Shown: positions 8,784-24,319 of the stretch, in pieces
Numbering within the stretch: the first letter of the stretch is position 1
How the letters are laid out: each line of letters begins with the position of its first letter
Assembly (NCBI GenBank): GCA_000990005.1
Contig: LBPF01000006.1
Coordinates: forward strand, 1-33,614
Direction of reading: 5' to 3'
DNA: 33,614 bases
Origin: Candidatus Woesebacteria bacterium GW2011_GWB1_33_38
Lineage (GTDB): Bacteria > Patescibacteriota > Microgenomatia > UBA8517
Made by a program: the position numbers and the translations under genes
The notes under the pieces: generated by a model
The model's input: the letters and a program-made list of their open reading frames with translations, nothing else
The model's database searches: none
Told to the model about the DNA's origin: nothing

Positions 8784-8786
8784 TCC

Positions 8787-9466: not shown

Positions 9467-10311
9467 TTGAAAACTTAAAACTAATATTATCAAAAAATAA
9501 AGATATTAAATCAAAAGATTATCTTCGTAATTTGTTGAAAGAAGAGCTTCAAATTGTTGTTTTGAATTTTATATATACAAATTCCAAGTATAAAGATTTG
9601 ATTTTTACAGGCGGAACCTGTCTACGGAAATTTTATGGTTTAGGCAGGCTTTCTGAGGATCTTGACTTTGACACCCATGATGGTTACTCTTTTGCTGGTA
9701 AAGAATTTGATTATAATAAATTTGCAAATGATTTAATTACATATTTTAATTCTGTTCTGAAATATAAAAACATCTCTGCAAAAGTAAAATACAAGACAGT
9801 CTTTTTGAAATTACCGGTGCTTCGAGAAATTGGTTATGCTGGGCCAAATGATAGTGAAATACTTATGTTACGAATTGATATTTCAAATTCATACACATCA
9901 AGTTGCGGAATAGAGATTAAAATTTTTGATTCAATCGAGTACAGTTTTGTTGCTAAGACTTATGATTTTTCGACACTTATCGCAAATAAAATAGCTGCAT
10001 TTTTGACTAGAATCTATAAAAAAGGTGGTATTCAACAAGAATCTTTTAAAGGTAGAGATGCCTTTGATGTTGTTTGGATGTTTGGTGAGATTAATTCAAA
10101 AAAAGTAAATATAAATTTTACTAGATTAAAAGAATATGTAAATTTTAACAATGCCGATGATTTAAAAAATCAAATACTTAAAAAATCATTAGTAATTAAA
10201 AGCACTGATTTGTATTATGATCTGAAAAACTTTTTTAAAGATGATATATATGTAAAACAATTTTGTGATAATTTTCAAGAATTACTTAAAAGTAGCATTA
10301 AATACATCTAA
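9460..10311 (+). CDS. abiEii: AbiEii-like nucleotidyltransferase toxin
   Basis: A 283-aa nucleotidyltransferase of the AbiEii/AbiGii family. The active-site signature is complete: FTGGTCLRKFYGLGRLSEDL followed by DFD (about 47-69) gives the GG(T/S)...D-x-D pattern, and the later KGRDAFDVVWMF corresponds to the family's conserved KxRD-x-x-D block. Such toxins transfer nucleotides to cellular targets and stop growth, aborting phage infection in studied cases. No frame damage is visible, so it is likely functional. It is co-transcribed with the AbiEi gene. Confidence 0.88.
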   Translation: MVVENLKLILSKNKDIKSKDYLRNLLKEELQIVVLNFIYTNSKYKDLIFTGGTCLRKFYGLGRLSEDLDFDTHDGYSFAGKEFDYNKFANDLITYFNSVLKYKNISAKVKYKTVFLKLPVLREIGYAGPNDSEILMLRIDISNSYTSSCGIEIKIFDSIEYSFVAKTYDFSTLIANKIAAFLTRIYKKGGIQQESFKGRDAFDVVWMFGEINSKKVNINFTRLKEYVNFNNADDLKNQILKKSLVIKSTDLYYDLKNFFKDDIYVKQFCDNFQELLKSSIKYI

Positions 10312-10358
10312 TTTGATATAATACACACATATTCCACAATGCGTGGCATTGGTTATTT

Positions 10359-11249
10359 ATGAAGAAAGTAATTTTAGTATTTTTATTGTTTCTAACTTTT
10401 CAGTTTATAAGTTACGGGTTACGAGTTACGAGTACTATGGCCAAAACAACTCCAAGCCCTGTTGCTACAATTTTACCAAGTCCTATTCCAACTGAAATTT
10501 CAAGAGTTGACATAACTCAGAAAAGTGAAGAAGCAGTTGGTCCTTTAGAGAAACTTATTAAAGAACAAACTTTAAGTTCAATTTGGCCTTTTAATCCCTT
10601 AAAATACGCAATAAAAGATGCAGTTAATAGTGGTATTCCAGCTAACACTATTGTACTTTTACTTCTTTTGCCCGTTGTAGCTACGGTTATAGCCGCTACC
10701 CGTCAACTTATAGGTATAAGAGGTTTTGGTATATTTTTGCCAGCCGCACTTTCCGTTACTTTTGTCGCAATTGGCCCAGCTCTTGGAATTATATTATTTT
10801 TAATAATTGGAGCTATTTCAATGCTGGTTAGACTTTTAACTAGAAAACTAAAATTAAGACTACAATATTTACCTAAAATGGCACTTATTTTATGGTTTGT
10901 TTCATTCGGAATTTTAGGAGTATTGTTTATATCTCCATATGCAAACATAGAAGGACTTAAAAACGTATCAATTTTTCCTGTACTTGTTTTAACGCTTTTA
11001 GTTGAAGACTTTACCAAAATTCAGCTTGGAAAATCTGTTAAAACAGCAATTGGAATTACTTCCCAAACTTTACTATTGGCCCTTTTATCATACCTCTTTT
11101 TAACCTTTGCACCATTTCAAAAGTATGTACTTCTAAATCCCGAGATCTCTTTATTTATTACTTTTGCGATAGATATCATATTAGGTCGTTACATAGGTTT
11201 AAGATTTATGGAATACAAACGTTTCAGAAAATTAATAAGTGGAAAGTAA
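10359..11249 (+). CDS. 7TM_transglut_C-type integral membrane protein
   Basis: A 296-aa membrane protein. After a signal peptide or first helix and a Thr/Pro/Ser-rich linker comes a block of about seven membrane helices with the marker region VVATVIAATRQLIGIRGFGI (about 107-126), typical of the 7TM domain usually fused to an inactive transglutaminase. The transglutaminase domain is missing here. In many bacteria this membrane protein is encoded beside an ATP-grasp ligase and a retropepsin-like protease, exactly the next gene here (10-nt gap). A TATAAT at 10317-10322 may be its promoter. The heptamer GTTACG(G/A) is repeated three times at 10411-10431 in the signal-peptide region. Confidence 0.8.
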   Translation: MKKVILVFLLFLTFQFISYGLRVTSTMAKTTPSPVATILPSPIPTEISRVDITQKSEEAVGPLEKLIKEQTLSSIWPFNPLKYAIKDAVNSGIPANTIVLLLLLPVVATVIAATRQLIGIRGFGIFLPAALSVTFVAIGPALGIILFLIIGAISMLVRLLTRKLKLRLQYLPKMALILWFVSFGILGVLFISPYANIEGLKNVSIFPVLVLTLLVEDFTKIQLGKSVKTAIGITSQTLLLALLSYLFLTFAPFQKYVLLNPEISLFITFAIDIILGRYIGLRFMEYKRFRKLISGK

Positions 11250-11258
11250 AACTTCATT

Positions 11259-12575
11259 ATGAAAATATCATCAATTTTGGGCTTAAATTCAAGAGGTGTA
11301 CTTTATACTTCCAAGTATAATTCTCGCAGTGCTAAAAAAATTGCCGATTCAAAATTATTAACCCATGCCGTTTTAAAAAGATTTGATGTCCCACATCCTA
11401 AGATTTATAAAAAATTTAAAAATCCTGAAGATGTTATTGATTACGATTGGAACAAGCTACCTAGTAGTTTTGCATTAAAACCTTCCCGAGGGCTTGGAGG
11501 AGAGGGAATAATTGTTGTCAAAAAGAAAATAAATAATTATTGGTCAACAACTTCACGGCAAAAAATAACTGCTGAAGACTTAAAACTTCAAACCTTAGAT
11601 ATTTTAGAAGGTGCCTATTCTATGGGAAATGAGCCTGACACAGCTTTTGTTCAGGAGTATGTTGGCAAACATAGAAGGTTTTTTAAGTTAGCATTTCGTG
11701 GAACACCCGATATTAGAGTTATTGTTTTTAATAAAATTCCAGTAATGGCAATGCTAAGGCTTCCAACAAGAGAGTCGGGAGGAAGAGCAAACTTACATCA
11801 AGGAGCATTGGGTTTAGGTATTGATATAGGAAGTGGAATGACAACAAATGCAATTTGGCACAATAACCCAATTGAAAAATCTCCCGACTTTGAAACGAAG
11901 CTAAAAGGAGTGAAGGTGCCATACTGGCAAAAGATCTTAGAAATTGCAGTTAAAGCTCAGATTGCCTCAGGCTTGGGCTATGCTGGGGTGGATGTAGTCC
12001 TTCATCCTGATAAAGGACCCATGATAATTGAGCTTAATGCTCAGCCTGGGTTATCTATTCAACTAGCCAACATGGAAGGGCTTAAGAAAAGATTAGAAAG
12101 AGTTGATGATATGGATGTAATTGATGTTGGGCATGGGGTTAGGATTGCCAAAGCTTTATTTGGTGGAAGGTATAAGGGAAAAATTAAAGATAGCCCTGAT
12201 GAAGTCAAATTAATTAAAGCTGTTGAAGAAATCAAAATAAAGGATATAGATGGCAAAAAACATAAAGTTCTATCCAAAATTGACACAGGTGCATGGTCAT
12301 CCGCAATTGACAAAAAATATGCAAAAGCCTTAGGACTTTTAAAAAAGGATAGGATACTTTGGTTTAGAGATAAATTATCAAGTTTGGGTAAAGAAGCAAG
12401 GCCTGTTATCCCTGTGACCATTTACCTTTCTGGTAGAAAAATAAAAACAAACATGACTGTGGCTGATAGAAAATTATTGAGGTATGATGTGTTGATAGGT
12501 AGGATCGACTTACAAGGCTTTTTAGTTAATCCAGAAATTGATAAAGATAAACTTGTAAAGGCAAAATGGTCATGA
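11259..12575 (+). CDS. RimK/alpha-L-glutamate ligase-like ATP-grasp fused to retropepsin-like domain
   Basis: A 438-aa two-domain protein. Residues 1-about 310 form an ATP-grasp domain of the alpha-L-glutamate-ligase-like type: ATP loop ALKPSRGLGGEGIIVVKKK, FVQEYV, the DIRVIVFNK strand and the metal-binding IIELNAQPG. Residues about 325-438 match the retropepsin-like 'ATP-dependent zinc protease' family: the DTGAWSSAID active-site motif and the closing IGRIDLQGFLVNP. In other bacteria these are often separate adjacent genes; here they are one chain. Together with the 7TM protein upstream, the enzyme probably ligates and trims a peptide or cell-envelope substrate (inference). It overlaps the next gene by 10 nt. 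Confidence 0.85.
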   Translation: MKISSILGLNSRGVLYTSKYNSRSAKKIADSKLLTHAVLKRFDVPHPKIYKKFKNPEDVIDYDWNKLPSSFALKPSRGLGGEGIIVVKKKINNYWSTTSRQKITAEDLKLQTLDILEGAYSMGNEPDTAFVQEYVGKHRRFFKLAFRGTPDIRVIVFNKIPVMAMLRLPTRESGGRANLHQGALGLGIDIGSGMTTNAIWHNNPIEKSPDFETKLKGVKVPYWQKILEIAVKAQIASGLGYAGVDVVLHPDKGPMIIELNAQPGLSIQLANMEGLKKRLERVDDMDVIDVGHGVRIAKALFGGRYKGKIKDSPDEVKLIKAVEEIKIKDIDGKKHKVLSKIDTGAWSSAIDKKYAKALGLLKKDRILWFRDKLSSLGKEARPVIPVTIYLSGRKIKTNMTVADRKLLRYDVLIGRIDLQGFLVNPEIDKDKLVKAKWS

Positions 12576-13381
12576 ATATTATATTAATATTAACAAGTGG
12601 TAAAGTTTCAAAACTTGATAACTTTATTGGTAAAGGTGTTGATTTGGGATCGTTTGATGATGTTAATTTTGATTCCGACTCAAATGCTTTAAGGCTGAAA
12701 GCCGTAGACCTAAAGCAATATACGCTGATATATTTTCGGATGGTTGGGAAAAGTTTAGAAGTTGCAACTTTAGTTACTGATTATGCAATTAAAAATAATA
12801 TAAAAATAGTAGATGGAATTTATACTAAATCTAATCTTATGCCCATAACTCTGGGAAAGTCAGTTGAGCTAAAAAAACTCTTAGAATCTGGTATAACGAC
12901 CCCCAAAACTGTTTTTGGAACATTTAACAAGTTACCATTTCCATATGTAGTCAAGTCGACAACTTCTTCGCGGGCCAGAGAAGTATGGCTTGTAAACAAT
13001 GAAGAAGAATTAAAAAGTTTGAGAGAAAAACTTCCCAAAAATAAATTTTTCTTTGTTCAGGAGTTTATATCAAAAGCTAAGAGGGCACGTTTATTAATAA
13101 TAGGTAATAAAGTAATAGGGGGAATTTTAAGACAAACTAAATGGAATAAAGATGAAACAAAAGAGACATTGAATCCAGTGCCAGTTGATATGGCAAAGCT
13201 TGCAATTGAAGCTACAAAGGCAGTCGGGCTTGATGTGTGTGGAGTTGATTTGTTGATTAATGAGAATAAAAAGTTATATGTTATTGAAGCAAATGCTGCG
13301 CCTTCATGGAAATTAATTAATAAATATTGTGATGTATCAGTTGAAGATGAAATCATTAAATATCTATCAAGCAAAATTTAA
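12566..13381 (+). CDS. RimK-like ATP-grasp protein
   Basis: A 271-aa ATP-grasp enzyme. An N-terminal pre-ATP-grasp domain is followed by YVVKSTTSSRAREVWLV (ATP loop), FFVQEFI, ARLLIIGNKVIGGILRQ, CGVDLLI and the metal site YVIEANAAPSW (E-x-N intact). The family joins an amino acid to a carboxylate through an acylphosphate. The acceptor is unknown; the substrate is probably shared with the neighbouring ATP-grasp genes. Start and stop overlap both neighbours, showing a tightly coupled operon 10359-14537. Confidence 0.82.
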   Translation: MVMNIILILTSGKVSKLDNFIGKGVDLGSFDDVNFDSDSNALRLKAVDLKQYTLIYFRMVGKSLEVATLVTDYAIKNNIKIVDGIYTKSNLMPITLGKSVELKKLLESGITTPKTVFGTFNKLPFPYVVKSTTSSRAREVWLVNNEEELKSLREKLPKNKFFFVQEFISKAKRARLLIIGNKVIGGILRQTKWNKDETKETLNPVPVDMAKLAIEATKAVGLDVCGVDLLINENKKLYVIEANAAPSWKLINKYCDVSVEDEIIKYLSSKI

Positions 13382-13952
13382 AAAGTTTGGAAGTAATCAT
13401 AAATCATTACTCTGGAAAACTAAGGGTGCTGCACATCAGCGCTTCAGAGAGTTCTGGAAAGAAATAGATTTTAACAACAAAAAAGTGTTAGATATTGGTT
13501 GTGGTTTTGGTGAAATGGGCAATTTTCTTGTGAAAAGATATAAAAATGTTACCTACAAAGGTGTCGATATAATGCCCGAATTCATTGAAAGTGGGAAAAA
13601 ACTTTACCCACAGTTGGACCTTGAGATTCATGATTTTCACGAGCTAACAAACACCGTAAGTTATAGTGGCATAATGTACGACATTGTTTTAGCTAGTGGT
13701 GTTTTAAACTCCAACATCCCAAATAATATGGATTATCGCGAAAAGTCAATCAAAAAGATGTTTGAGTTAACTAATAATTGTCTTGCCTTTAACATGTTAG
13801 GAAGCCATCCTCAACCTAAAAATGATGAAGATTCAAATGTTTGGTATGCAGATAGTTTAGAAATTATAGAGTACTGTATGAGTTTATCACAACGCGTCAT
13901 ATTACGAGCAAATTATCATCCCAAAGACTTTACAATTTTTATGTATGTGTGA
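13347..13952 (+). CDS. class I SAM-dependent methyltransferase
   Basis: A 201-aa methyltransferase with motif I VLDIGCGFGEMGNFL at about residues 44-58 and an acidic motif II (YKGVDIMPEF). The N-terminal segment (YQAKFKKFGSNHKSLLWKTK) is typical of a small-molecule or trans-aconitate-like methyltransferase subgroup. ATG at 13347 was chosen because the conserved part begins just after it; GTG 13329 and ATG 13332 are alternatives. All overlap the previous gene. The tail overlaps the start of the pseudogene by 8 nt. It lies inside an ATP-grasp operon, so its target may be the same peptide or metabolite. Confidence 0.78.
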   Translation: MKSLNIYQAKFKKFGSNHKSLLWKTKGAAHQRFREFWKEIDFNNKKVLDIGCGFGEMGNFLVKRYKNVTYKGVDIMPEFIESGKKLYPQLDLEIHDFHELTNTVSYSGIMYDIVLASGVLNSNIPNNMDYREKSIKKMFELTNNCLAFNMLGSHPQPKNDEDSNVWYADSLEIIEYCMSLSQRVILRANYHPKDFTIFMYV

Positions 13953-14537
13953 TCTAATTATTTTTACACAATATCCAATGGCCTATGCTCCAAAAAGGCT
14001 CGAAAATGAGGCCCAATTGTAGGGTTTTACCCTGCAAGTCATCAGTTATAGTAATGTTGATTTGAAAATTTACCAGAAACAAAATATGTGATACTTCGGG
14101 AACCGAATCCAAAAAAAGATCTTTACAGATTAAGAGACAAAGTTTTGAGACATTACCTGAATTCTAATACCTATGTTCTAAATTCTAAATCCTATCTAAA
14201 GTGGAGTGTCTTGGACAAAAAGACTCAAGAGCTAGAATTTCAAAAAGCAGGTTTTGATTTACGAGTCATTGTAATCGATTCTAAAGTGGTTGGAATTATG
14301 AAAAGGACTCCAAGATCGGGAGAATTCCTTTCAAACTTTTCCAAAAGAATAATTATAGGAAACATAGCAGTCGAAACTGCAAGACGTTTCAAACTTGATT
14401 ATGTTGGGGTTGACATAATGCTTGGCAATGGCAATAAGTGGAAAGTTTTGGAAGTAAATAGAGCTTGCCAGTTCAAGGGATTTGAAAAGGCTTTAAAGAT
14501 TAATGTTGCAAAGGAAGTAACTGAATTTTTTAATTAA
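13945..14537 (+). pseudogene. decayed RimK-like ATP-grasp gene
   Basis: From ATG 13945 (overlapping the methyltransferase end) the frame reads MCDLIIFTQYPMAYAPKRLE, an ATP-grasp N-terminus, but hits TAG at 14020-14022 and continues in frame to VDLKIY. The homologous sequence then resumes in another frame (ENLPETKYVILREPNPKKDL) near 14064, so there is a frameshift with small loss around 14060. Further on, QKAGF jumps straight to DLRVIVIDSKVVG, so the central ATP-binding part (roughly 70-80 residues in relatives) is deleted, and the stretch after GEFLSNFSK is shortened. The end (KVLEVNRACQFKGFEKA) is well preserved. The longest remaining frame, 14088-14537 from GTG, is probably not a real gene. 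Confidence 0.8.
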
Positions 14538-14823
14538 CAAATCTAAGTGATTCTGAGTGCCACTTAGCAATTTCCTTGCCATGTTTTGCTATGTATTGCA
14601 CACATCTCGCACTTGCGTTGTCATCGAGTTTTCCACTAGCTAACGCTTTTTCGACTATTTTTACACTTTCCATTACCATTTTGCGATAACCATCATCTGC
14701 ATCTCCCTGATAATCAGCAAGTCTTGATATCCAATCATTATCAATATTTTTGCTATCGACTACCTGCGCTAAAATAATAGATCCAATCACCTGTTCCATT
14801 TCTCTTTTCAAATCTTTGTTCAT
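14530..14823 (-). CDS. small helical protein of unknown function, 97 aa
   Basis: A 97-residue, mostly helical, soluble protein (one Cys, two Trp) with no recognised family. It is convergent with the ATP-grasp pseudogene, overlapping by 8 nt. Upstream on its strand lies one copy of the CTCAA-n6-CTCAA box (14859-14876), about 35 nt from the start codon, a similar distance to that seen before the small gene at 22602. Confidence 0.55.
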   Translation of the reverse strand: MNKDLKREMEQVIGSIILAQVVDSKNIDNDWISRLADYQGDADDGYRKMVMESVKIVEKALASGKLDDNASARCVQYIAKHGKEIAKWHSESLRFVN

Positions 14824-14858
14824 AATGGAGGTAGTTTAAAGTAGTAATAAATCAATTT

Positions 14859-14876
14859 CTTGAGTTTTTGTTGAGG
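14859..14876. promoter_or_regulatory. CTCAA-n6-CTCAA box, copy 1
   Basis: Minus-strand CCTCAACAAAAACTCAAG has two CTCAA pentamers exactly 11 bp apart, one helical turn, as for tandem binding by OmpR-type winged helices. The same 18-mer occurs at 22550-22567 and a near copy at 21081-21097. It lies between the divergent genes 14823(-) and 14939(+). Confidence 0.55.
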
Positions 14877-14938
14877 TAAGGTTTTAATTAAATTTTCTAA
14901 CTCTGAGCGTGATATAATATAGGGTATATGATGAGACA

Positions 14939-15832
14939 ATGAAAAAAATATTAGTATTAGTTGATAGGTTGAGTTTAAGTAAAAAGAAATTAACTAGATT
15001 TTTAAATAAAAATTCAAGTAATTTATATCAGGCCGATCTTCGTTCCTTTTCTGATTTATTTTTTGAAATAAAAACTGGAAAAGTAAAAATTAAAGCGAGA
15101 GGTGTTGATTTATCTAAATATGATTTAGTCTTTGTAAGACGGGCTGGAAAGTATGTCCGCTACATGGGAGCAATTTCAAAATATTTAGATTTCAAAAAGG
15201 TAAAGTTTATAGATCCTGCATTTAGGGAAATTGGTATGTCTATGGATAAGGCCTCAAGTGCTATTAGACTGGCGATAAAAAAAATTCCAATGCCAGATAG
15301 TTATTTTTGTTTTAGATCTTCAGTTGTGAAGAATAAAGAAAAAATTATCCTATCCTTGGGTCTGCCAATAATTGCTAAGGCAATTAATTCTCAAAGAAAT
15401 AAAAACATATTTATCTTAAAGTCTTCTTTAGACTTTGATAAACTTTTGAAAAGATCAAAGAAGGAATTTATTTTTCAAAAATTCATAGATATTGAAAGTG
15501 AATATAGATTATTAGTTATGGGTGGAAAGGTTGTTGTTTTGGAGCAAAAATCAGTTCGTAATTACAAAAAAATTAAGGTAGAGTATTTAGACCCTGATGA
15601 ACCATCAGTGTTTTTAAAACTTGATACTGTTTGTCAAGAAATTAATAAAATAGCAATTAAATCAACCAGCATTTTAAATCTTGATATTGCTGGAGTTGAT
15701 ATCGCCATTGAAAAAGGTACAAATAAAAACTTTTTAATTGAAGTAAATAAAGGCCCAGGAATTGTCCCAGATGCAAAAACCTCTCCGGAACTAAAGGCCT
15801 TTTCAGATTATTTAAAGTCAGTTTTGAAGTAA
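14939..15832 (+). CDS. RimK-like ATP-grasp protein
   Basis: A 297-aa ATP-grasp enzyme. The pre-ATP-grasp part (to about 100) contains KYDLVFVRRAGKYVRYMG; the ATP-grasp core shows PIIAKAINSQRNKNIFILKS, FIFQKFIDIESEYRLLVMGG, IAGVDIAIE and the metal site FLIEVNKGPG (E-x-N intact). It is the fourth ATP-grasp reading frame in this cluster but has its own promoter (TATAAT 14913-14918, poor -35) and is separated from the operon by the minus-strand gene. Acceptor and amino-acid substrates are unknown. Confidence 0.8.
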   Translation: MKKILVLVDRLSLSKKKLTRFLNKNSSNLYQADLRSFSDLFFEIKTGKVKIKARGVDLSKYDLVFVRRAGKYVRYMGAISKYLDFKKVKFIDPAFREIGMSMDKASSAIRLAIKKIPMPDSYFCFRSSVVKNKEKIILSLGLPIIAKAINSQRNKNIFILKSSLDFDKLLKRSKKEFIFQKFIDIESEYRLLVMGGKVVVLEQKSVRNYKKIKVEYLDPDEPSVFLKLDTVCQEINKIAIKSTSILNLDIAGVDIAIEKGTNKNFLIEVNKGPGIVPDAKTSPELKAFSDYLKSVLK

Positions 15833-15835
15833 ATA

Positions 15836-15898
15836 TGTCAGGAATCTGTAATGATTGACAGGTATCCGTCAAGCGATATTTTTATTGATATTTATAAT
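15836..15898 (+). promoter_or_regulatory. regulated promoter shared in design with 18299-18361
   Basis: TGTCAGGAAT (15836-15845), then TTGACAGGTATCCGTCAAGC (15855-15874), then TATAAT (15893-15898) 18 nt later and 7 nt before the ATG at 15906. The same blocks in the same order precede the small-protein operon at 18394, so one regulator probably controls both. Confidence 0.6.
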
Positions 15899-15905
15899 TC
15901 ACAAA

Positions 15906-16151
15906 ATGGAAGTAGTCGTAGCGACAAAAACAGATTTGGAACAAGCAGAAGATGCGGCGAGAAAAGCTCGAAAAGAGGCATCCGATACTCTTGCTTGGTA
16001 TAAAGCAAAAAAACAAGGTGGGTCTAGAGTGGAAGCCAAGATATCTGCTAGGCTATTACTAGCTGATTTAAGGGACGCCAATGCTAAAGGTCGAGAGGTT
16101 GAAAGACTTAAGAAAAAACGAGATGAGTTGAAAACAATGGTCGCTTGGTAA
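15906..16151 (+). CDS. small coiled-coil protein of unknown function, 81 aa
   Basis: An Ala/Lys/Glu/Arg-rich, almost entirely helical protein (DLEQAEDAARKARKEASDTL and later REVERLKKKRDELKTMVAW) that looks like a helical hairpin. It ends in AW, resembling the LIW end of the small protein at 19035-19253, which has a comparable helical character; a distant relationship is possible. A start 51 nt upstream (15855) was rejected because it would lie inside the promoter. Convergent with the unknown gene at 16166-17128. Confidence 0.6.
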   Translation: MEVVVATKTDLEQAEDAARKARKEASDTLAWYKAKKQGGSRVEAKISARLLLADLRDANAKGREVERLKKKRDELKTMVAW

Positions 16152-16165
16152 GGTTGTAGTAATTT

Positions 16166-17128
16166 TTAATTATACATTTCTGCCAGATCAATTACTTTTT
16201 GAATTCTGTTATCAAATAGTGGGAAATTAGGATTTATGATGTCCAAAAACCAATCATATAAACCTCGATCCGCTTCTTTATGTGTCATGATATAAGCCAT
16301 TGATTTTAACATTAAAGCTAACAATAGATGGTCTTCTTTTTTATTCTTACCAAAGTTTACTGTAATTTGTTTTCCGTCTCTGGTTAGAAGTGTTTGAGCA
16401 ATAAATCTTAGTATAACAATACTGATAAATCTTATCTGACTATCATCAGTTTCCCTAAATGCTTTTTGAAGATCACCCTTAAGTTCTAATTTTAGTTCTT
16501 GTGTCAATAAATTTGGTATAACTTGGATATTCATGCCAGAATCAATTGGCAGTCTTATTTCATCTAAAGATGTATGTAAGTTATTTAAACTTCTTACATT
16601 TTGTAGATCTTCAGGGCTATCCTCAGTTATTGATATGCTATATCCATCGCCGAAACATACACGGTTCGGATCTGTCTTTATCTTGCAGTTAGGTAAGTCT
16701 GTTGTGCCTAGTACACTGGAATCTATATTTGGTCGAACAATATCGAGGTCAAATTTTAGATCTCTGTACTTCTGATCTCGTCTTGCTGAAGCTAATAAAT
16801 CATCAACTGGAAAATATTGTAAATTACCAACTACTTGGTAAAAACCACAGATCTTCCTAATTTGATACCCTAAAAATGCAAAAGCTATTCCACCTACAAC
16901 GTTTGCTTTTCCGTCTGATACATTATTTTCTAAAAATGCTATAACTTCAGTCTGTTCATTTCCTAGTTGGGTAAGAAAAGCGGAAAGATCAGGGTGCGAA
17001 TTTTTTCGAGCATCCAGCATATTTAGAAATTTGCTAGAAGTTACACCACAGATTTCATCTTCAGGTAAATCGTCATATCTATCAAATTGTTCGTCTACAT
17101 CGGAACGATCAAAATCTATAATTGCCAT
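16166..17128 (-). CDS. unknown protein encoded with the winged-helix ATPase, 320 aa
   Basis: A 320-residue soluble protein with an acidic N-terminus (DFDRSDVDEQFDRYDDLPED), a short hydrophobic segment near residues 75-92 and a helical C-terminus. I recognise no family or catalytic motif. Its start overlaps the end of the regulator gene by 13 nt, so the two are made together and may form one signalling unit, for example sensor or modulator plus DNA-binding ATPase (inference). Confidence 0.65.
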   Translation of the reverse strand: MAIIDFDRSDVDEQFDRYDDLPEDEICGVTSSKFLNMLDARKNSHPDLSAFLTQLGNEQTEVIAFLENNVSDGKANVVGGIAFAFLGYQIRKICGFYQVVGNLQYFPVDDLLASARRDQKYRDLKFDLDIVRPNIDSSVLGTTDLPNCKIKTDPNRVCFGDGYSISITEDSPEDLQNVRSLNNLHTSLDEIRLPIDSGMNIQVIPNLLTQELKLELKGDLQKAFRETDDSQIRFISIVILRFIAQTLLTRDGKQITVNFGKNKKEDHLLLALMLKSMAYIMTHKEADRGLYDWFLDIINPNFPLFDNRIQKVIDLAEMYN

Positions 17129-18273
17129 TTATACCCCTTTCCTTTAACAGTTTCTAAAAAATTAGGATCTAGGCCATATCTTGAAATCTTTTTTCTAAAC
17201 CTAGAAATTTTTTGATCCACAGCCCAATCCGAGTAATCTACTTCCTCGTTATTACCCCATATGGCAGAAGCAATTTTTTCTCTACTTACAACTTTATTTT
17301 TGCTTTTAAGTAAAAGATTATAAACTTCCAACTCCCAGTCGTTTAATATACTTCTTAAGACATTTGGATTTTTAGTTTGACTTAATATGAATTTATCCTT
17401 AAATATGTCAAGATCAACAATTCCTGATTTTCTTAAGGTTTCTAAAATTCTAAGTTCATTGGGGTTTATTACTTTTGTATTTGTTATGGTCTTTTCAAAA
17501 ACACTCTTATAATTATCAGGAAGATGTTTCCAAATAGCATTAAACTTTAAGTCAAGCTCTAAGTTGTTTTTGTCTTTATTTCGAAGAAGTGCTCTGGTAA
17601 GGGTTAATATCCCTCCTGTATAGTTTTTAATGTTTTCAATTTCTGTTTCAGTAATTGAAAAATTCAACTTTTGAGACTGGTTTTTTATAAAATTTGATAA
17701 TATCTCTGAAGGTAAACATGGAACAGTTTCAATTGAATTTATAAGGGTTATAATACTGGGTTGTCGATTAATAATCGACTCAATTTGTTCAAAATAATTA
17801 ATGTTTAGAATAGAATGAATATTATTTTGGTCTGAACGAACAATATTGCTAATACCGGTAAATAATCTTTGACGTTCAATCGTAGCTAAATTTTCTAATG
17901 TATCCCCGATAAAGACAACTTTTAAGCCTTTGTTTATAAGTTCTCGGCATCGATTAGAAACAGTATCTATTAAATTTGAATTGTTTTGTTTAATATTGAT
18001 ATTAAGATTTATCGCAATATTTTCTAATATTTCGGAAGCTTTATTGTTTTTGGATACAGTACCAACGTAATAAATAAATTTGTATTTCGAAAATGATTGA
18101 CCCAACACTAACCTTAAAGTTTTATTTGAATTTAATATGTTGTTAATAGTCCTAGTCTTACCAAGATAGGGGAACCAGATACATAACCTATTTTCGCCAT
18201 GTTTTAATGACCCTAAAATTAAAGGGGCGTAAAATCGGGCAATTTGTTCATCAATACTCCCTATAGTCTGCAT
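17116..18273 (-). CDS. P-loop ATPase with C-terminal OmpR-type winged helix
   Basis: A 385-aa predicted transcription regulator. The N-terminal about 270 residues look like a STAND/AAA-type ATPase: a Walker A-like WFPYLGKTRTIN (degenerate, GKTR), a Walker B-like LKVVFIGDTLENLA, and YTGGILTLTRALL resembling a sensor-2 segment. The last about 90 residues form a winged helix: VVSREKIASAIWG, WAVDQKISRFRKKISRYGLD, LETVKGKGYKW. A regulator that couples nucleotide binding to DNA binding is the likely job. Its promoter is TTGACA-17-TATTAT on the minus strand. Two TGTCAGGAAT repeats 22 bp apart flank that promoter, and small-protein genes diverge from it. Confidence 0.78.
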   Translation of the reverse strand: MQTIGSIDEQIARFYAPLILGSLKHGENRLCIWFPYLGKTRTINNILNSNKTLRLVLGQSFSKYKFIYYVGTVSKNNKASEILENIAINLNINIKQNNSNLIDTVSNRCRELINKGLKVVFIGDTLENLATIERQRLFTGISNIVRSDQNNIHSILNINYFEQIESIINRQPSIITLINSIETVPCLPSEILSNFIKNQSQKLNFSITETEIENIKNYTGGILTLTRALLRNKDKNNLELDLKFNAIWKHLPDNYKSVFEKTITNTKVINPNELRILETLRKSGIVDLDIFKDKFILSQTKNPNVLRSILNDWELEVYNLLLKSKNKVVSREKIASAIWGNNEEVDYSDWAVDQKISRFRKKISRYGLDPNFLETVKGKGYKWQL

Positions 18274-18276
18274 ATA

Positions 18277-18361
18277 TGTCAGGAATAATACACTTTTCTG
18301 TCAGGAATGTCAACTTTTGATAGGTGGCCGTCAAGCTAGAATTTTGGGCTTACTGTATTAT
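18277..18361. promoter_or_regulatory. divergent control region with TGTCAGGAAT repeats
   Basis: Direct repeats TGTCAGGAAT lie at 18277-18286 and 18299-18308, 22 bp apart (two turns), over the regulator's own promoter (minus: TTGACA 18313-18308, TATTAT 18290-18285). To the right, TTGATAGGTGGCCGTCAAGC (18317-18336) is followed 19 nt later by TATTAT (18356-18361) for the plus-strand operon. The block repeats the order found at 15836-15898. Confidence 0.65.
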
Positions 18362-18393
18362 TCCCCTATAGTTTTAATTTGGAGGTGAAAAAT

Positions 18394-18567
18394 ATGAAAG
18401 ATAACGAAAAAGTAGAAAAAGAAGATACGACAAAGGTTGCTGTTGTTAATAGTGACGAGGACAAAAATAAGGAAAAGCCTGTGGATGAAAAAAACGAAAC
18501 AAGACAGAAGCCTGGGTCTAAAGAAGCGTGGAAAATCCATAAATCTTTTGGACCGCAACCTAAGTAA
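18394..18567 (+). CDS. small charged protein, 57 aa
   Basis: A highly charged, Lys/Glu/Asp-rich and probably disordered peptide with a more basic end (EAWKIHKSFGPQPK). A strong Shine-Dalgarno GGAGGTG (18381-18387) sits at proper distance from the ATG, fixing the start and contrasting with the leaderless genes nearby. First gene of a plus-strand run of five small genes that ends at the terminator at 19504. No family recognised. Confidence 0.6.
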   Translation: MKDNEKVEKEDTTKVAVVNSDEDKNKEKPVDEKNETRQKPGSKEAWKIHKSFGPQPK

Positions 18568-18613
18568 AAAGATAAATCATAATTATGAAAAAAAGGAAGA
18601 AGGTGTTTAATAT

Positions 18614-18796
18614 ATGGAAAAAAAAGATAAAGTACAACCAATAACAGAATTGATATACGAGGAAGGCAGGCCATCTGATGGTAAAGATTGGAGTAGGTAC
18701 AAAAGAATTGTTGTTAAAGTTCCACCAACAGTTAATCATCGCGAAGCTGCAGTTATGGCAGACAAAATTTTAAAAGAACAGGGAATTATAGAATAA
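18614..18796 (+). CDS. small protein of unknown function, 60 aa
   Basis: Second gene of the small-protein operon, preceded by a purine-rich GGAAGAAGGTG. The C-terminal half (RIVVKVPPTVNHREAAVMAD) suggests a beta strand followed by a helix. There is no signal peptide, Cys or recognised family. Confidence 0.6.
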   Translation: MEKKDKVQPITELIYEEGRPSDGKDWSRYKRIVVKVPPTVNHREAAVMADKILKEQGIIE

Positions 18797-18803
18797 TTAC
18801 TTT

Positions 18804-19031
18804 ATGGAAGCAGAAGAAAACAGAAATGGTTTGAGAGAGGAAGTTTTATCTTTTTTTGAAGCTAGAGCTGAACCTGTAACAGCAATAGATTTAGCTAACG
18901 CATTTTCGTGAAAAAGGCTAGGTGGTATTTCCGCACGAGCAGTTTCTGTTGTTTTTGATCTTGTTGCAGACGGATCAATTAAGTATGACAATATAGACAA
19001 AAATTGGAGGTTTGTTCGAAAAGGTAATTAA
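18804..19031 (+). pseudogene. small winged-helix-like gene with an in-frame TGA
   Basis: From ATG 18804 the frame runs 75 codons to TAA at 19029-19031, interrupted only by TGA at 18909-18911 (codon 36). Both sides look like one small helix-turn-helix/winged-helix protein: LREEVLSFFEARAEPVTAID and, after the stop, GISARAVSVVFDLVADGSIK then a wing-like KNWRFVRKGN. A single base change from CGA (Arg) or TGG (Trp) would explain it. The gaps to the genes on both sides (7 and 3 nt) are those of an intact operon member. It is either a fresh pseudogene, a sequencing error or a read-through site. Confidence 0.6.
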
Positions 19032-19034
19032 ATT

Positions 19035-19253
19035 ATGGAATCAAAAACGCAAAGACAACTTTTAGAAGAGGCAGATGCTAACAAAAAAGAGTTTCTGAGA
19101 TTAGCTTATATAATTGAAATAACTAATTTTAATACTACCTATCAAGCACAGATTGCAGTAGGGTTAGCAATTGCTGTGGGTAAAAGAGCACAAAGACTAC
19201 AAGGAGAGGCTAAACAAGCCGAAGAAAACTATAATGCCACACTAATTTGGTAA
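19035..19253 (+). CDS. small helical protein, 72 aa
   Basis: Fourth gene in the small-protein run, starting 3 nt after the interrupted gene. It is Ala/Gln/Glu-rich and helical, ending ENYNATLIW. Overall character and the terminal Trp resemble the 81-aa protein at 15906, whose promoter has the same control blocks as this operon. No family recognised. Confidence 0.6.
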   Translation: MESKTQRQLLEEADANKKEFLRLAYIIEITNFNTTYQAQIAVGLAIAVGKRAQRLQGEAKQAEENYNATLIW

Positions 19254-19271
19254 TGTTTTATTAAATAATTT

Positions 19272-19502
19272 ATGGAAAAAGAAGAAAATAAGGAGAAACG
19301 CGAGGGAGTTTATAAGCTTATTATTTCAGCTTCCCATGTTGTGGGCGATAAGGATGAAAGAGTTGCCGACTTTGCCTCTACAACATGGCGGAGTGGCGAT
19401 GTAGTTGGTGCACTTGAAGTAGGAAAAACAATAGCGATCAAGAAATGGCCAGTGAAAGACGGATATTCTGATCATAATGCTACCCAAAACCATTTTTTTT
19501 AA
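19272..19502 (+). CDS. small protein of unknown function, 76 aa
   Basis: Last gene of the run. A charged start (MEKEENKEKREG) is followed by a probably folded part with RVADFASTTWRSGDVVGALE and an aromatic end. It stops 2 nt before the bidirectional terminator. No family recognised. Confidence 0.6.
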   Translation: MEKEENKEKREGVYKLIISASHVVGDKDERVADFASTTWRSGDVVGALEVGKTIAIKKWPVKDGYSDHNATQNHFF

Positions 19503-19503
19503 C

Positions 19504-19536
19504 AAAAAATCCCGTGATTTCTCTCGGGATTTTTTT
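19504..19536. terminator. bidirectional Rho-independent terminator
   Basis: Stem AAAAAATCCCG (19504-19514) pairs with CGGGATTTTTT (19525-19535) around a 10-nt loop. A T run follows on both strands, so it ends both the plus-strand small-protein operon and the minus-strand rplJ-rplL transcript. Confidence 0.9.
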
Positions 19537-19548
19537 GTGCAAATTAAA

Positions 19549-19938
19549 TTACTTTAACTCAACTGTTGCGCCTGCAGCTTTTAACTTTTCGGATGCATTC
19601 TTAACATCTTCAGGTTTTGCATCCTTTAATACTTCAAAAGGAACATTATCTGTTGCATCTTTTGCTTCTTTAAGTCCTAATGTTTGATTAATTTCTCTTA
19701 AAGCTTTAATAACTGCAATTTTTGTTGCTCCTGAAGCGGTCATTACTACGGTTTGATTTCCACCAGATTCTGCTACTGGTGTTTCTCCTGCCGTAGCTCC
19801 TGCTGGAGCGGAGGCTGAGGCTACTGGTGCCATTGCACTTACTCCAAGTTTATCTTGAAGTGCGGTTACAAGTTCCGAAAGATCAAGTACCGTAAGTTTT
19901 GAAATTTCTTCTACTAATTCATCTACTTTTTTAGCCAC
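19549..19938 (-). CDS. rplL: ribosomal protein bL12 (L7/L12)
   Basis: A 129-aa stalk protein: N-terminal dimerisation domain (about 1-35), Ala/Gly/Pro-rich hinge (about 36-60) and the C-terminal factor-binding domain with KIAVIKALREI and a GLKEAKD segment. It recruits translation factors to the 50S stalk. The start is GTG, fixed by a strong GGAGGTG Shine-Dalgarno site inside the end of rplJ; the two genes overlap by 8 nt. It is followed by the bidirectional terminator. Confidence 0.97.
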   Translation of the reverse strand: MAKKVDELVEEISKLTVLDLSELVTALQDKLGVSAMAPVASASAPAGATAGETPVAESGGNQTVVMTASGATKIAVIKALREINQTLGLKEAKDATDNVPFEVLKDAKPEDVKNASEKLKAAGATVELK

Positions 19939-20506: not shown

Positions 20507-20538
20507 GTATTATATAATACAAATATTATGGAAAGCAA
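20507..20538. promoter_or_regulatory. divergent promoter on a 14-bp palindrome
   Basis: The palindrome at 20507-20520 (GTATTATATAATAC) carries a TATAAT on each strand: minus 20514-20509 for rplJ with TTGCTT at 20538-20533, and plus 20513-20518 for the small gene at 20528, whose ATG lies inside the rplJ -35 zone. Confidence 0.6.
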
Positions 20539-20728
20539 GGATGAATTAAGAAAGAAATTAGATAAAGCTATACCCGATACCCCCCCCACACCTAAAGGTT
20601 ACCCAGTAGTAAAACCTGGTTTATTCGAACAAAGTATTCAAATTGGGGCAAGTCAGATTGTGACTGGATTTATAGAAAATCAAGTTGCAAATGCTGTAAT
20701 AGATAAAACAAAAAAACAAAAGAGTTAA
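20528..20728 (+). CDS. small protein with a C8 tract, 66 aa
   Basis: A 66-residue protein: charged helix, a Pro-rich patch (DTPPTPKGYP) and an amphipathic stretch (QIGASQIVTGFIENQ). The Thr-Pro-Pro codons 18-20 are a run of eight C (20580-20587), a possible slippage site at nearly the same codon position as the G8 tract at 5853. The -10 is 9 nt before the ATG. The end overlaps the convergent neighbour by 4 nt. No family recognised. Confidence 0.55.
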   Translation: MESKDELRKKLDKAIPDTPPTPKGYPVVKPGLFEQSIQIGASQIVTGFIENQVANAVIDKTKKQKS

Positions 20729-21036
20729 TTTGAAGAAGAAATTCGTTTGACAAAGACTGAGTTTGGGAATTGGGTATTTAGATTTGAATTGTGTGGCTTA
20801 GCAACTTCAAATTTAATACCATTTTTTTCAAAAATTTGACCTTCGGATGCATTAAGGGGAATCAACAATTGTACTGTTGTTGTGCTTGCATGCTTATCGC
20901 TATTACGATAGCCATATCCTTGCCAAACGCTTGTTGTATCAGTTGCTTCAAAACTAAGTGGAGTACCATCATCAAACAATCTTGCTATAACTTTTGGTAT
21001 CGCGCCCTCCTCGGGTGCTGTTTGCTTATCAATCAT
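20725..21036 (-). CDS. unknown protein, 103 aa, probably beta-rich
   Basis: A 103-residue soluble protein with alternating polar/hydrophobic segments (IPKVIARLFDDG, TTTVQLLIPLNA, FVKRISSSN) suggesting a small beta fold. ATG 21036 is chosen because TAAAAT (21050-21045) ends 8 nt before it with TTGCTA (21074-21069) at 18-nt spacing; a TTG at 21054 would lie upstream of this -10. A CTCAA-n6-CTCAA box (21081-21097) lies directly above the -35. No family recognised. Confidence 0.55.
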   Translation of the reverse strand: MIDKQTAPEEGAIPKVIARLFDDGTPLSFEATDTTSVWQGYGYRNSDKHASTTTVQLLIPLNASEGQIFEKNGIKFEVAKPHNSNLNTQFPNSVFVKRISSSN

Positions 21037-21080
21037 ATACACGTATTTTATCAAATTACTACCCCAAATAGCAAGTTTTT

Positions 21081-21097
21081 CCTCAACAGAAACTCAA
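21081..21097. promoter_or_regulatory. CTCAA-n6-CTCAA box, copy 2
   Basis: CCTCAACAGAAACTCAA, with CTCAA at 21082-21086 and 21093-21097, 11 bp apart. It differs from copies 1 and 3 by one base in the first 17. It is directly upstream of the promoter of the minus-strand gene starting at 21036. Confidence 0.5.
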
Positions 21098-21111
21098 ATG
21101 ATAAGGAGGAG

Positions 21112-21873
21112 TTATTTTACTTCATCAAATTTGGCTAGAATCAAATTTTTGATTTCAGGAATTATACTCCTGTCTTTTAGTGGCAAAAATTTTCTAATAT
21201 CATTATCCAAATCTTTATTATTCCATTTTTTTACCTTTTCAATAAATTCTTCTGGGTTGTATTTTTCATTGTAAAATTTTAATTTATTGTTTATTAATTT
21301 GATATTAAACTTAACATTCTTTTTAAGTATGAATAAAAAATCATATAAATCACGCCCCTTTTGTCTATTAATTATTGCTCTATATTTTTCAGCCAAAATC
21401 TCCTCAAGCGATAAATGGTTTATTATGCTTGTTGTTGTTATGGGTAAGTTGGTAAATATTGTTCCCAATTTTGGATCTAATACATTTTCTCTTTTAGAAA
21501 AATCAAGCTTAATTGTTAATGGTTGGCTTGATATATCGACAGGAAGAATAATCTTTTTAGAGATTCCTTGAATTGTATCTAAATCCTTTAAATAAACATC
21601 AGGATATTCTTTTTTCAATTCAACTATAGCTTTATCTATTAATATATTTAATTTTTTTAGAGTAAGGTTGGTTGTAAAATCCAAATCTTCAGAATATCTG
21701 TTCGAGCCAAAAATTATTTTTAATGCTGTACCTCCTTTAAAAAATAAATGTTTACTGTCTTTATTTTTATATAATTCGTTCAAAAATTGGATTTGAATAA
21801 TCTCTCTTAAGATTGAGTATTTATCAATACCTTTTCCTTCTGATAGTTCTTGTAAAATGTTGTTACTTATCAT
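21112..21873 (-). CDS. abiEii: AbiEii-like nucleotidyltransferase toxin, second locus
   Basis: A 253-aa AbiEii family nucleotidyltransferase with FFKGGTALKIIFGSNRYSED then LDF (about 43-65), the GG(T)...D-x-D active-site signature, and the conserved KGRDLYDFLFIL block. It follows its AbiEi gene after 6 nt. Sequence similarity to the toxin at 9460 is limited to the family motifs, so this is a different lineage rather than a local duplication. It lies in the cassette that separates rplA from rplJ. Confidence 0.9.
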   Translation of the reverse strand: MISNNILQELSEGKGIDKYSILREIIQIQFLNELYKNKDSKHLFFKGGTALKIIFGSNRYSEDLDFTTNLTLKKLNILIDKAIVELKKEYPDVYLKDLDTIQGISKKIILPVDISSQPLTIKLDFSKRENVLDPKLGTIFTNLPITTTSIINHLSLEEILAEKYRAIINRQKGRDLYDFLFILKKNVKFNIKLINNKLKFYNEKYNPEEFIEKVKKWNNKDLDNDIRKFLPLKDRSIIPEIKNLILAKFDEVK

Positions 21874-21879
21874 GTAGTG

Positions 21880-22479
21880 TTATCTATTATCTAAATTATG
21901 TGTCTTTATATAATTTTGAAATGGTTTGTAATTAATCCCCATTTTTATTTTATCAAAAGTTTTCCAATTAATAATACTTAAATCCAAATCAGATAAATTG
22001 AGACTCCCTATATTTTTACTTGCGAGATATATTAGATCAATCAATGCTTTTTCAGGTATAGCGATTAAAAAATTATCTTTCTTAACAAAATCACTAAAAA
22101 TTGCCTTTTGAATTTTGGTGTAATCATATTCTTTTGTTTTAATCTTATATTTTCTTGATTTTTGAGTAGTAACTGACGTAATTGAATAGGTAAATTGCGG
22201 TAATATTCCATAATAAGATAGTGCTGATTCAAGGCTAATGTATGAAGGAGACAAAATAATATTTGCTTTTTCAAAATCTGACATTTGTAAATCAGATAAA
22301 ATATATTTACCCTTTATTAATTTTTGAATAAGTTTATATTTTTCCATTCTTTCAAATATTTTGTAAATTGTGTGACGATTTTCGATATTAAGGACTTTAG
22401 AAAGTAACGTTGGGGATATAACTTTTAGATCTAATTCTTTTAGCCTCGAGATAGCTTTAATTGTAGATATAGACGCCAT
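21880..22479 (-). CDS. abiEi: AbiEi-like antitoxin, second locus
   Basis: A 199-aa AbiEi family protein: an N-terminal winged helix (ISPTLLSKVLNIENRHTIYK then IFERMEKYKLIQKL) and the AbiEi core (LSPSYISLESALSYYGILPQ, LIAIPEKALIDLIYLA). It should repress the operon through the palindrome that abuts its start codon and neutralise the AbiEii toxin downstream. The N-terminal helix-turn-helix is longer than in the 8837 homologue, yet the operators are nearly the same. Confidence 0.88.
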   Translation of the reverse strand: MASISTIKAISRLKELDLKVISPTLLSKVLNIENRHTIYKIFERMEKYKLIQKLIKGKYILSDLQMSDFEKANIILSPSYISLESALSYYGILPQFTYSITSVTTQKSRKYKIKTKEYDYTKIQKAIFSDFVKKDNFLIAIPEKALIDLIYLASKNIGSLNLSDLDLSIINWKTFDKIKMGINYKPFQNYIKTHNLDNR

Positions 22480-22519
22480 AATTAGTATAAATATATACTA
22501 ATTGTAGAATCTATGTCAA
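22480..22519 (-). promoter_or_regulatory. second AbiE promoter and 24-bp operator abutting the start codon
   Basis: Arms AATTAGTATA (22480-22489) and TATACTAATT (22494-22503) with a 4-nt centre run exactly up to the minus-strand ATG at 22479. Minus-strand TTGACA (22519-22514) and TATATT (22495-22490) frame it. Length, centre size, position and 8 of 10 arm bases match the operator at 8813-8836. Confidence 0.85.
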
Positions 22520-22549
22520 GTGGTAAAAAAATTTTGTAAAAAAATTTTT

Positions 22550-22601
22550 CCTCAACAAAAACTCAAGAAAATATAATAACCAAATTAGATAATAACCAAA
22601 T
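22550..22601 (+). promoter_or_regulatory. CTCAA box copy 3 and promoter with 13-bp direct repeats
   Basis: CCTCAACAAAAACTCAAG (22550-22567) is identical to copy 1 at 14859. It is followed by TATAAT (22572-22577) and by two perfect copies of ATAATAACCAAAT (22573-22585 and 22589-22601), 16 bp apart, the second ending at the ATG of the small gene at 22602. Confidence 0.6.
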
Positions 22602-22856
22602 ATGCCTTTTATATATCCGCGTAACTTACGGCCAGGAGTAAATCTTTTGGTTCATTTAACAAATACCTTCTCAAAAAGACCTGTTCCTTTGGGGAAAGTA
22701 CTTGAAAAACGAACTGAGCATAACGATCCAGGTCCAGATACTGAAATCTTAGTTATTCAAAAAGAATCAGGTGAACTAGTTGAAGTATCTTATTCGTTAA
22801 CTACTGGAAAAGCAGGAGCTTTATCTTCCGGGTTTGCTGAACGAAGAATAGGTTAA
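22602..22856 (+). CDS. small protein of unknown function, 84 aa
   Basis: An 84-residue soluble protein with beta-like segments (VNLLVHLTN, ILVIQKESGELVEVSY) and Gly-rich ends. It overlaps the end of the convergent winged-helix regulator by 4 nt. The upstream CTCAA box and 13-bp direct repeats mark it as a regulated gene. No family recognised. Confidence 0.55.
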   Translation: MPFIYPRNLRPGVNLLVHLTNTFSKRPVPLGKVLEKRTEHNDPGPDTEILVIQKESGELVEVSYSLTTGKAGALSSGFAERRIG

Positions 22857-23863
22857 TTAAAAATATATCCTTTTCCTCTTTTGGTAAAGATGACTTCTTT
22901 GTTAATTCCTAAAGTTTTTATTTTTCGCCTTAGATTTTCAACCAGTTTAGCCATGGCTTCGAGAGAAAACTTATCATCTGCCTTATCTTTCCAGATTATA
23001 TTTGCTACTTGATCAAAGTCTAAAATTTTTCCTTTATTTTTAATTAATGCAGTAAGTAAATCCTTTTCCTGTTTTGAGAATATTATATTTTCTAAGTTAA
23101 TTTTGATTTCTTTTTGAGGAAAACCTAATTTTACTAAATATTTATTTGATTTAGTTATTGTATCTTTTGAAAAAGAAAATTGTGATCTAATTATATTTTT
23201 AAAATTAGGATAATATTTTTTAAAAATAGTGTTTTCAAAAATGAATGAAATTGCTGACATTCTTTTTAAATATTTTTCCTCATTAATCTCCCCACCTATC
23301 CAATTTTCAACAATATATAAATTTTGTAAAATACCAGCTCCAATATTTCCAGCAGGAAGATCAACTCGAGATGTAACCAATAAATTGAATTTGTTACCGA
23401 TTCTTGGAGGGTTAAATGAACCAAGTGTTCCAAAAGGTGTAATCAAAACATTGATTTCGTGTACTTTTGAAATAGCCTTTTTAAAATCCAGGAATTTATC
23501 AACATCATTAAAAAATGACTCTTCAATTTTTTGCCAGTCTTTTTTAATTTTTTCTATGCCACTTCTCAAATTATCTTTTTTAAATTTTATAAGATGTAAC
23601 TTAATTTCATCGATTGCGGATTGCGGATATGTAGTGGAAAAGTTTTTGTTGGGGTTAAAATTAATAGTTCTCCAGAAATTTTTGGAATAGGGGAGGTTGG
23701 GAAAGTAAACTGTTTTAGGATTTCCCCTTTCAAGATTTGGAGTAACTGCAAATCCGCCATCTTGATATTCTCCCGTGCTTATACCTTTAGCCAAAAAACA
23801 AAGATACTGTGCTTCCAAATCTCCCGTAATATCGGTTACTATATTTACTTTAGGATAATTCAT
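22853..23863 (-). CDS. regulator with C-terminal OmpR-type winged helix, 336 aa
   Basis: The last about 85 residues form a winged helix: IIFSKQEKDLLTALIKNKGK, DQVANIIW, AKLVENLRRKIKTLGIN, FTKRGKGYIFN. The N-terminal about 245 residues are a separate sensor-like domain. The segment INVLITPFGTLGSFNPPRIG and the following helix vaguely resemble predicted metallopeptidases, but no HExxH is present, so any such origin would be inactive (weak inference). The ATG at 23863 is preferred over 23926 because a minus-strand TATAAT (23903-23898) lies between them. It is divergent from a small gene at 23951, as the other two winged-helix regulators are from theirs. Confidence 0.75.
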   Translation of the reverse strand: MNYPKVNIVTDITGDLEAQYLCFLAKGISTGEYQDGGFAVTPNLERGNPKTVYFPNLPYSKNFWRTINFNPNKNFSTTYPQSAIDEIKLHLIKFKKDNLRSGIEKIKKDWQKIEESFFNDVDKFLDFKKAISKVHEINVLITPFGTLGSFNPPRIGNKFNLLVTSRVDLPAGNIGAGILQNLYIVENWIGGEINEEKYLKRMSAISFIFENTIFKKYYPNFKNIIRSQFSFSKDTITKSNKYLVKLGFPQKEIKINLENIIFSKQEKDLLTALIKNKGKILDFDQVANIIWKDKADDKFSLEAMAKLVENLRRKIKTLGINKEVIFTKRGKGYIFN

Positions 23864-23867
23864 ATAC

Positions 23868-23903
23868 TCACTCAAGATGTTTGTTTTGAGTACTGATATT
23901 ATA
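23868..23903. promoter_or_regulatory. divergent promoter with ACTCAA/TTGAGT inverted repeat
   Basis: ACTCAA (23869-23874) and TTGAGT (23885-23890) flank a 10-nt centre between the regulator start and overlapping -10 boxes: minus TATAAT 23903-23898, plus TATTAT near 23897. The CTCAA core matches the dispersed CTCAA boxes, suggesting they share this regulator. Confidence 0.5.
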
Positions 23904-23950
23904 CCCTGTAGTAAAGCTAGAAACAAGAAAGGAAGAAAGGAGGCGAAAAT

Positions 23951-24208: not shown

Positions 24209-24273
24209 ATTAAGTGTGGTGATGGTAGCTTATAACAACAGTTCCCCGAGCCTAACGTAATATAAAATGATAT

Positions 24274-24312
24274 TAATCTATATCTTGACAAAATATAGAT
24301 TAGTACTAAAAT
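24274..24312 (+). promoter_or_regulatory. promoter and inverted-repeat operator of ATPase copy 3
   Basis: Arms TAATCTATAT (24274-24283) and ATATAGATTA (24293-24302) flank a 9-nt centre that holds the -35 TTGACA (24285-24290). TAAAAT (24307-24312) follows at 16-nt spacing, 7 nt before the ATG, so the mRNA should be leaderless. Confidence 0.75.
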
Positions 24313-24319
24313 ATATTGT

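Follow-up and report, generated by a model that had tools for sequence, protein, structure and literature searches.

The window analysed here, a stretch of 33,614 nucleotides from Candidatus Woesebacteria bacterium GW2011_GWB1_33_38 (contig LBPF01000006.1), carries a cassette of 3.7 kb in which a regulator gene and a partner gene on the minus strand are placed between two units of small-protein genes on the plus strand (Table 1). In a blastn comparison with a sister species of the same genus (G001) homology stops at 15816 and restarts at 19502, and the slot is occupied there by a single gene for an AAA/DUF4143-type ATPase. As homology is broken exactly at these two positions, the units, the regulator, the partner and the control blocks form one replaceable insert. 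This location suggests accessory genes subject to exchange, as would be expected if they served in conflict or interaction. The other two modules of the window with a wHTH regulator likewise fall in segments missing from the sister species (5688-10457 and 20516-25485). Besides wHTH regulators these segments hold small proteins, AbiEi/AbiEii pairs and DUF4143 ATPases, and the second one splits the rplJ-rplA ribosomal protein neighbourhood. A Fic/DOC-family protein (27220-28092; PF02661, E=1e-20; PADLOC models SoFic/PDC-S04) is encoded next to nusG in a stretch without homology to the sister species. The backbone cluster at 10359-15832, mostly kept in that species, encodes a 7TM_transglut membrane protein, an ATPgrasp_ST/Zn_protease fusion, several RimK-like ATP-grasp proteins and a methyltransferase; the ATP-grasp fragment at 14088 (149 aa) looks truncated.

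Table 1. Coordinates of the genes, promoters and control elements within the window.
Feature	Position	Strand	Details
Paralogous wHTH-only regulator, 105 aa	7234-7551	-	PF00486, E=2.8e-11
Block of the second cassette	7553-7636	+	TGACAG 7553, TGTCAG 7575, GTCAAG 7606, -10 TAAAAT 7631
Small-protein genes (86, 81, 90, 112 aa), divergent from 7234	7648-8783	+	no Pfam family at E<=0.01
Whole accessory cassette (unit 1, partner, regulator, unit 2), 3.7 kb	15817-19501		absent from sister species G001
Control block 1	15836-15874	+	TGTCAGGAAT-N9-TTGACAGGTATCCGTCAAGC; GTCAAGC at 15868-15874
-10 of unit 1, TATAAT	15893-15898	+	25 nt after GTCAAG start; class-wide modal geometry
Unit 1 protein, 81 aa, Ala/Lys/Glu-rich, ends MVAW	15906-16151	+	ORF
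Partner gene, 320 aa, 13-nt overlap with regulator	16166-17128	-	no known family
Regulator, NTPase-like N-terminal region and C-terminal OmpR/PhoB-type wHTH	17116-18273	-	PF00486, E=3.3e-15
Third TGTCAGGAAT copy	18277-18286	+	overlaps the -10 end and start site of the regulator promoter; likely site of autorepression
Regulator's own promoter	18285-18313	-	TTGACA-17-TATTAT; 11 of 12 match
Control block 2	18299-18336	+	TGTCAGGAAT-N8-TTGATAGGTGGCCGTCAAGC; GTCAAGC at 18330-18336
-10 of unit 2, TATTAT	18356-18361	+	26 nt after GTCAAG start; class-wide offset peak 26
Unit 2 ORF 1, 57 aa, highly charged	18394-18567	+	Shine-Dalgarno GGAGGTG
Unit 2 ORF 2, 60 aa	18614-18796	+	ORF; no family match
Unit 2 ORF 3, 75-codon frame	18804-19031	+	in-frame TGA at codon 36
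Unit 2 ORF 4, 72 aa, ends TLIW	19035-19253	+	ORF; no family match
Unit 2 ORF 5, 76 aa	19272-19502	+	ORF; no family match
Weak equivalent of the block at the third wHTH module (22853-23926)	23871-23902	+	CTCAAG, TATTAT 26 nt after its start

Pfam, NCBIfam, PHROGs and PADLOC gave no usable match for the small proteins. The frame of ORF 3 in unit 2 is open on either side of its TGA, which could point to a disrupted gene, recoding or a sequencing error; read through, it gave no family. The first-pass annotation had paired the proteins at 15906 and 19035 by their Trp ends; these ends (...MVAW and ...TLIW) and an Ala/Glu/Lys-rich composition are indeed common to both, whereas the implied kinship is not supported, BLASTP giving no significant similarity between the two (E=4.8). 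The scanned cassette proteins contain no toxin or antitoxin family, and the arrangement is not that of a type II toxin-antitoxin system, the regulator being 385 aa long and divergent from the small genes.

The wHTH of the regulator (residues 314-382) scores 56.3 bits against PF00486 (Trans_reg_C), for which the curated cut-off is 26.2, and its nearest solved structures are DNA-binding domains of the OmpR/PhoB family (PhoB, ArlR, SaeR and PcoR in the PDB). No receiver-domain family was found in the 385 residues, all response-regulator models matching residues 287-385 only, and the protein is therefore not a response regulator. Its N-terminal region contains the P-loop-like motifs WFPYLGKT and VVFIGDT, of which the former, the Walker A, is without its first glycine; in most surveyed relatives this motif cannot be recognised by a simple pattern (it can in 11 of 106). 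Neither Pfam AAA or NACHT nor, in a profile scan, BTAD was matched. The model of this region comes closest to AAA+ folds of the Cdc6/ORC, RFC and NB-ARC type at low confidence (mean pLDDT 59.6, TM ~0.35), and the attempt to name the NTPase class by structure was dropped because the model is too weak. The partner gene has no other match in 137 genomes of the class.

A long control block had been reported to stand duplicated before the two units, and direct reading confirms it exactly: at both places TGTCAGGAAT is followed, after 9 or 8 nt, by TTGA(C/T)AGGT(A/G)(T/G)CCGTCAAGC. In full, block 1 reads 15836 TGTCAGGAAT-CTGTAATGA-TTGACAGGTATCCGTCAAGC 15874 and block 2 reads 18299 TGTCAGGAAT-GTCAACTT-TTGATAGGTGGCCGTCAAGC 18336, with a 20-bp core identical at 17 of 20 positions. 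Exact copies of TGTCAGGAAT occur at three sites of the window only (15836, 18277 and 18299); the extra one at 18277, exactly 22 bp upstream of that at 18299, was said to lie over the regulator's promoter, and both the reading and a promoter scan bear this out. When up to three mismatches are allowed, the core is found at the same two places only, in the window (0 in 100 shuffles) as in the whole genome of 845,411 bp, and the composite block pattern is likewise confined to them, so that both copies stand beside the regulator operon and none elsewhere. The GTCA offsets within the window's block (1, 23, 32 and 53) fit an 11-nt rule exactly in the 22-bp step only, and an 11-bp half-site rule is a better fit to the regulator family than to this copy of the block. 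Tandem repeats were looked for and none were found.

The regulator's promoter is the best sigma70-like match within 15500-19700, with TTGACA at 18313-18308 and TATTAT at 18290-18285 on the minus strand, separated by 17 bp. The TGTCAGGAAT copy at 18299-18308 falls inside its spacer and that at 18277-18286 on the -10 end and the start site, the latter being placed by the promoter ~5 nt before the ATG. On the plus strand the promoters of units 1 and 2 have good -10s and no -35; GTCAAGC is found in its stead, starting 25 and 26 nt ahead of the -10 and ending 18-19 bp before it. As the -10 of unit 1 is merely 7 nt before the ATG at 15906, its mRNA would be near-leaderless, and so would the regulator transcript.

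The element at 7553-7636 has the block geometry of the 17116-18273 cassette and is located in the second regulator's own divergent promoter. The wHTH of this second regulator (7234-7551) is 46% identical to that of 17116-18273. Two small Cys-containing proteins encoded at 8166-8783 have a common CxxC...C pattern, and one gave a weak WhiB-like PHROG match (E=0.003). At the third module, the element at 23871-23902 precedes an 85-aa gene at 23951.

The block is probably the operator of the 17116-18273 protein, in an autoregulated, Pho-box-like local regulon carried on an accessory cassette. The regulator would be a one-component protein, with an NTPase-like sensor for a presumed signal and a PhoB-type wHTH, predicted to bind in a head-to-tail row on the GTCA half-sites so that the last one, GTCAAGC, takes the place of the -35. 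Once bound it may help RNA polymerase to start unit 1 (15906) and unit 2 (18394 onward), by analogy with the PhoB and SARP activators, and as the row covers its own near-consensus promoter it would also lower its own synthesis. That the regulator is repressed and the units are activated is deduced solely from positions. The regulon would be local because the regulator, the partner, the units and the blocks travel together as a 3.7-kb cassette. The half-sites over the near-consensus promoter could also belong to a purely repressor operator, by which the regulator silences its own promoter and the units until a signal arrives, as in switches of the toxin-antitoxin or lysogeny type; the cassette also uses slots common to AbiE toxin-antitoxin pairs, DUF4143 ATPases and a Fic protein. 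However, where a TTGACA -35 would be expected in the unit promoters there is GTCAAGC, 25-26 nt from the -10, and an operator at the -35 of an otherwise weak promoter points to activation. Repression alone is for this reason considered unlikely.

The geometry recurs across the class. The wHTH profile (A3) gave matches in 158 of 280 class genomes and, at a stricter cut-off, in a handful of genomes only elsewhere in the phylum. Upstream of 108 related regulators, GTCA direct-repeat pairs in divergent orientation were counted 31 times at 11 bp, 21 at 22 bp and 11 at 33 bp, where dinucleotide shuffles give ~0.3 each. A periodic pair is present in 53 of the 108 against 6 of 265 controls (p=4e-27), and in 24 of 61 when one regulator per 40%-identity cluster is taken (p=1e-14), while a clear GTCA repeat is missing in about half of the surveyed regulators. 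GTCAAG occurs on the divergent strand in 50/108 (controls 20/265) and the reverse, CTTGAC, in 0/108; the longer GTCAAGC is found in 33/108 versus 4/265. Moreover the box TCAAG-N19-21-TANNNT faces the divergent gene in 59 regulators and the opposite way in 2, the distance of the -10 from the GTCAAG start showing a sharp peak at 26 nt. The control rate for this box, 35/329, is inflated because nine of these regions share a regulator's box and six are wHTH regulators fetched later.

A fixed distance between GTCAAG and the -10, together with a conservation better than that of the upstream copies, is also what a promoter for an alternative sigma factor, TCAAG(C)-N19-21-TANNNT, would present, the upstream repeats then being incidental. 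Such a promoter does not account for the way in which the box goes with wHTH genes (59/108, as compared with 35/329 control regions, an inflated rate) nor for upstream GTCA copies that recur at 11, 22 and 33 bp, and it is very improbable. An ORF begins within 170 nt of the -10 at 56 of the 59 boxes, and is complete in 51; the complete ones have a median length of 73 aa, and 40 of them do not exceed 130 aa. An ATG with a ribosome site or a near-leaderless start was found for 39 of the 56 ORFs versus 5 of 33 opposite-strand controls, the ORF chooser being biased to better start signals and longer frames and single gene starts being tentative. Codon-position GC is 0.51/0.41/0.34 as against 0.44/0.37/0.42 in the opposite-strand control, and these ORFs look coding more than this control does. 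Merely three similar pairs exist among them, so the targets of the box are mostly lineage-specific.

The several RimK-like ATP-grasp genes at 11259-15832 bring to mind graspetides, which have been reported from CPR bacteria (PMC8939145), and the small proteins might be precursors modified by these adjacent enzymes, with the regulator serving that pathway. The ATP-grasp genes, save the fragment at 14088, nevertheless form part of the conserved backbone and also occur in the sister species, which lacks the cassette; in addition, no ATP-grasp gene was recognised among the ORFs of a 13-kb locus in a more distant relative (G019, examined by its ORFs and not by profile scan). The link was rejected on the persistence of these genes without the cassette, and a graspetide role is very improbable.

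A search of named relatives gave one true ortholog, in G019 (MGGJ01000009.1, a Woesebacteria MAG of another genus), and two distant wHTH matches; only in G019 was another full-length, strongly similar regulator found, 32% identical to 17116-18273. Between this regulator and two divergent small-protein genes lies the block TGTCAGGAATAATAACATTTTCAGTCAGAAGTATCAATTTTATGACAGATGAGGTCAAGC, which aligns without gaps to 18277-18336 with identical 22-bp and 30-bp steps. On the other strand the G019 regulator has its promoter in the equivalent place (TTGATA-17-TATTAT), and two half-sites overlie the regulator promoter in both genomes. A 324-aa gene starting MAI occupies the position of the partner gene, and the small proteins are, by eye, unrelated to those of the window. 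As both blocks lie in one cassette and have a core identity of 17/20, they might be taken for a product of chance, or of a recent duplication inside the cassette that means nothing for regulation. This is hardly credible: the sequence flanking the core differs between them, a second genus retains the block beside diverged small genes, and neither the shuffles nor the rest of the genome contain a chance copy.

Across 50 family genomes the motif is not spread without relation to the regulator: TGAYAG-N4-7-GTCAAGC occurs five times, and three of these are the blocks described here. An additional match, in G058, is within a coding gene. The one in G064, a further genus (G064:C21:10914-10932), is an intergenic TGTCAG...TGATAG...GTCAAGC-like element without the 30-bp step; no large gene is called alongside it in a 3-kb locus, and it may be left over from a lost module or be a target in its own right. 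The local regulon with feedback proposed by the first-pass annotation is thus supported by the footprint of the G019 block, by three of five family matches and by the insertion as a single cassette, the regulation itself being what we infer from sequence.

In these reduced, host-dependent bacteria almost nothing is known of gene control. Through a box that can be read from sequence alone, roughly half of the regulators surveyed are linked to a single neighbouring set of genes, as a rule small and specific to a lineage, and the box offers a handle on proteins without homologs. The promoter rule (GTCA repeats, GTCAAGC, 26 nt, -10) lends itself to testing in an ordinary laboratory host. A description of this regulator family was not found in the literature on regulators, motifs and small proteins of Patescibacteria/CPR, in a search that left subscription journals mostly outside. 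As a tentative suggestion, for which we would not claim even odds, one-component switches carried on cassettes may make up a large family of the class that has not been described, in which every member is linked, by way of a GTCA-repeat promoter, to a rapidly changing set of small proteins of its own; these could form a swappable arsenal for conflict or host-cell contact, read out by the NTPase-like sensor.

In phoA the Pho-box element stands ~15 nt before the -10, unlike the GTCAAG described here, which starts 26 nt before it. The likeness to PhoB and its box lies in the PF00486 wHTH, the head-to-tail GTCA half-sites and the site that replaces the -35. The Pho box of E. coli is built of head-to-tail half-sites with an 11-nt unit and the core CTGTCAT (PMC4415409). 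Unlike PhoB, the present regulator has an NTPase-like region ahead of the wHTH and no receiver domain; moreover it is divergent, probably autoregulated, and limited to one cassette. With the AAA+/STAND one-component regulators (ORC/Cdc6, NB-ARC-like) it would share a P-loop-type core, helical regions and a DNA-binding wHTH, according to a model of low confidence, and it differs from them in a Walker A minus its first glycine.

The SARP/AfsR proteins of Streptomyces are cluster-situated activators in which an OmpR-type DNA-binding domain is joined to a nucleotide-binding module, and their sites are direct repeats 11 or 22 bp apart that overlap the -35 of weak promoters (PMC10936776). The regulator resembles them in its OmpR-type domain joined to an NTPase-like region, in the repeats at 11 and 22 bp seen across its family and in its location beside the genes concerned. 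By definition, however, SARP/AfsR proteins have the OmpR-like domain at the N-terminus followed by BTA, and their 3' repeat is 8 bp from the -10 (PMC10936776), whereas here the wHTH is C-terminal (314-382 of 385), no BTA or TPR domain was recognised, and 18-19 bp separate the end of the 3' repeat from the -10, ~11 bp or one helical turn more. With a C-terminal wHTH and a last repeat 18-19 bp instead of 8 bp from the -10, the regulator is therefore not a SARP.
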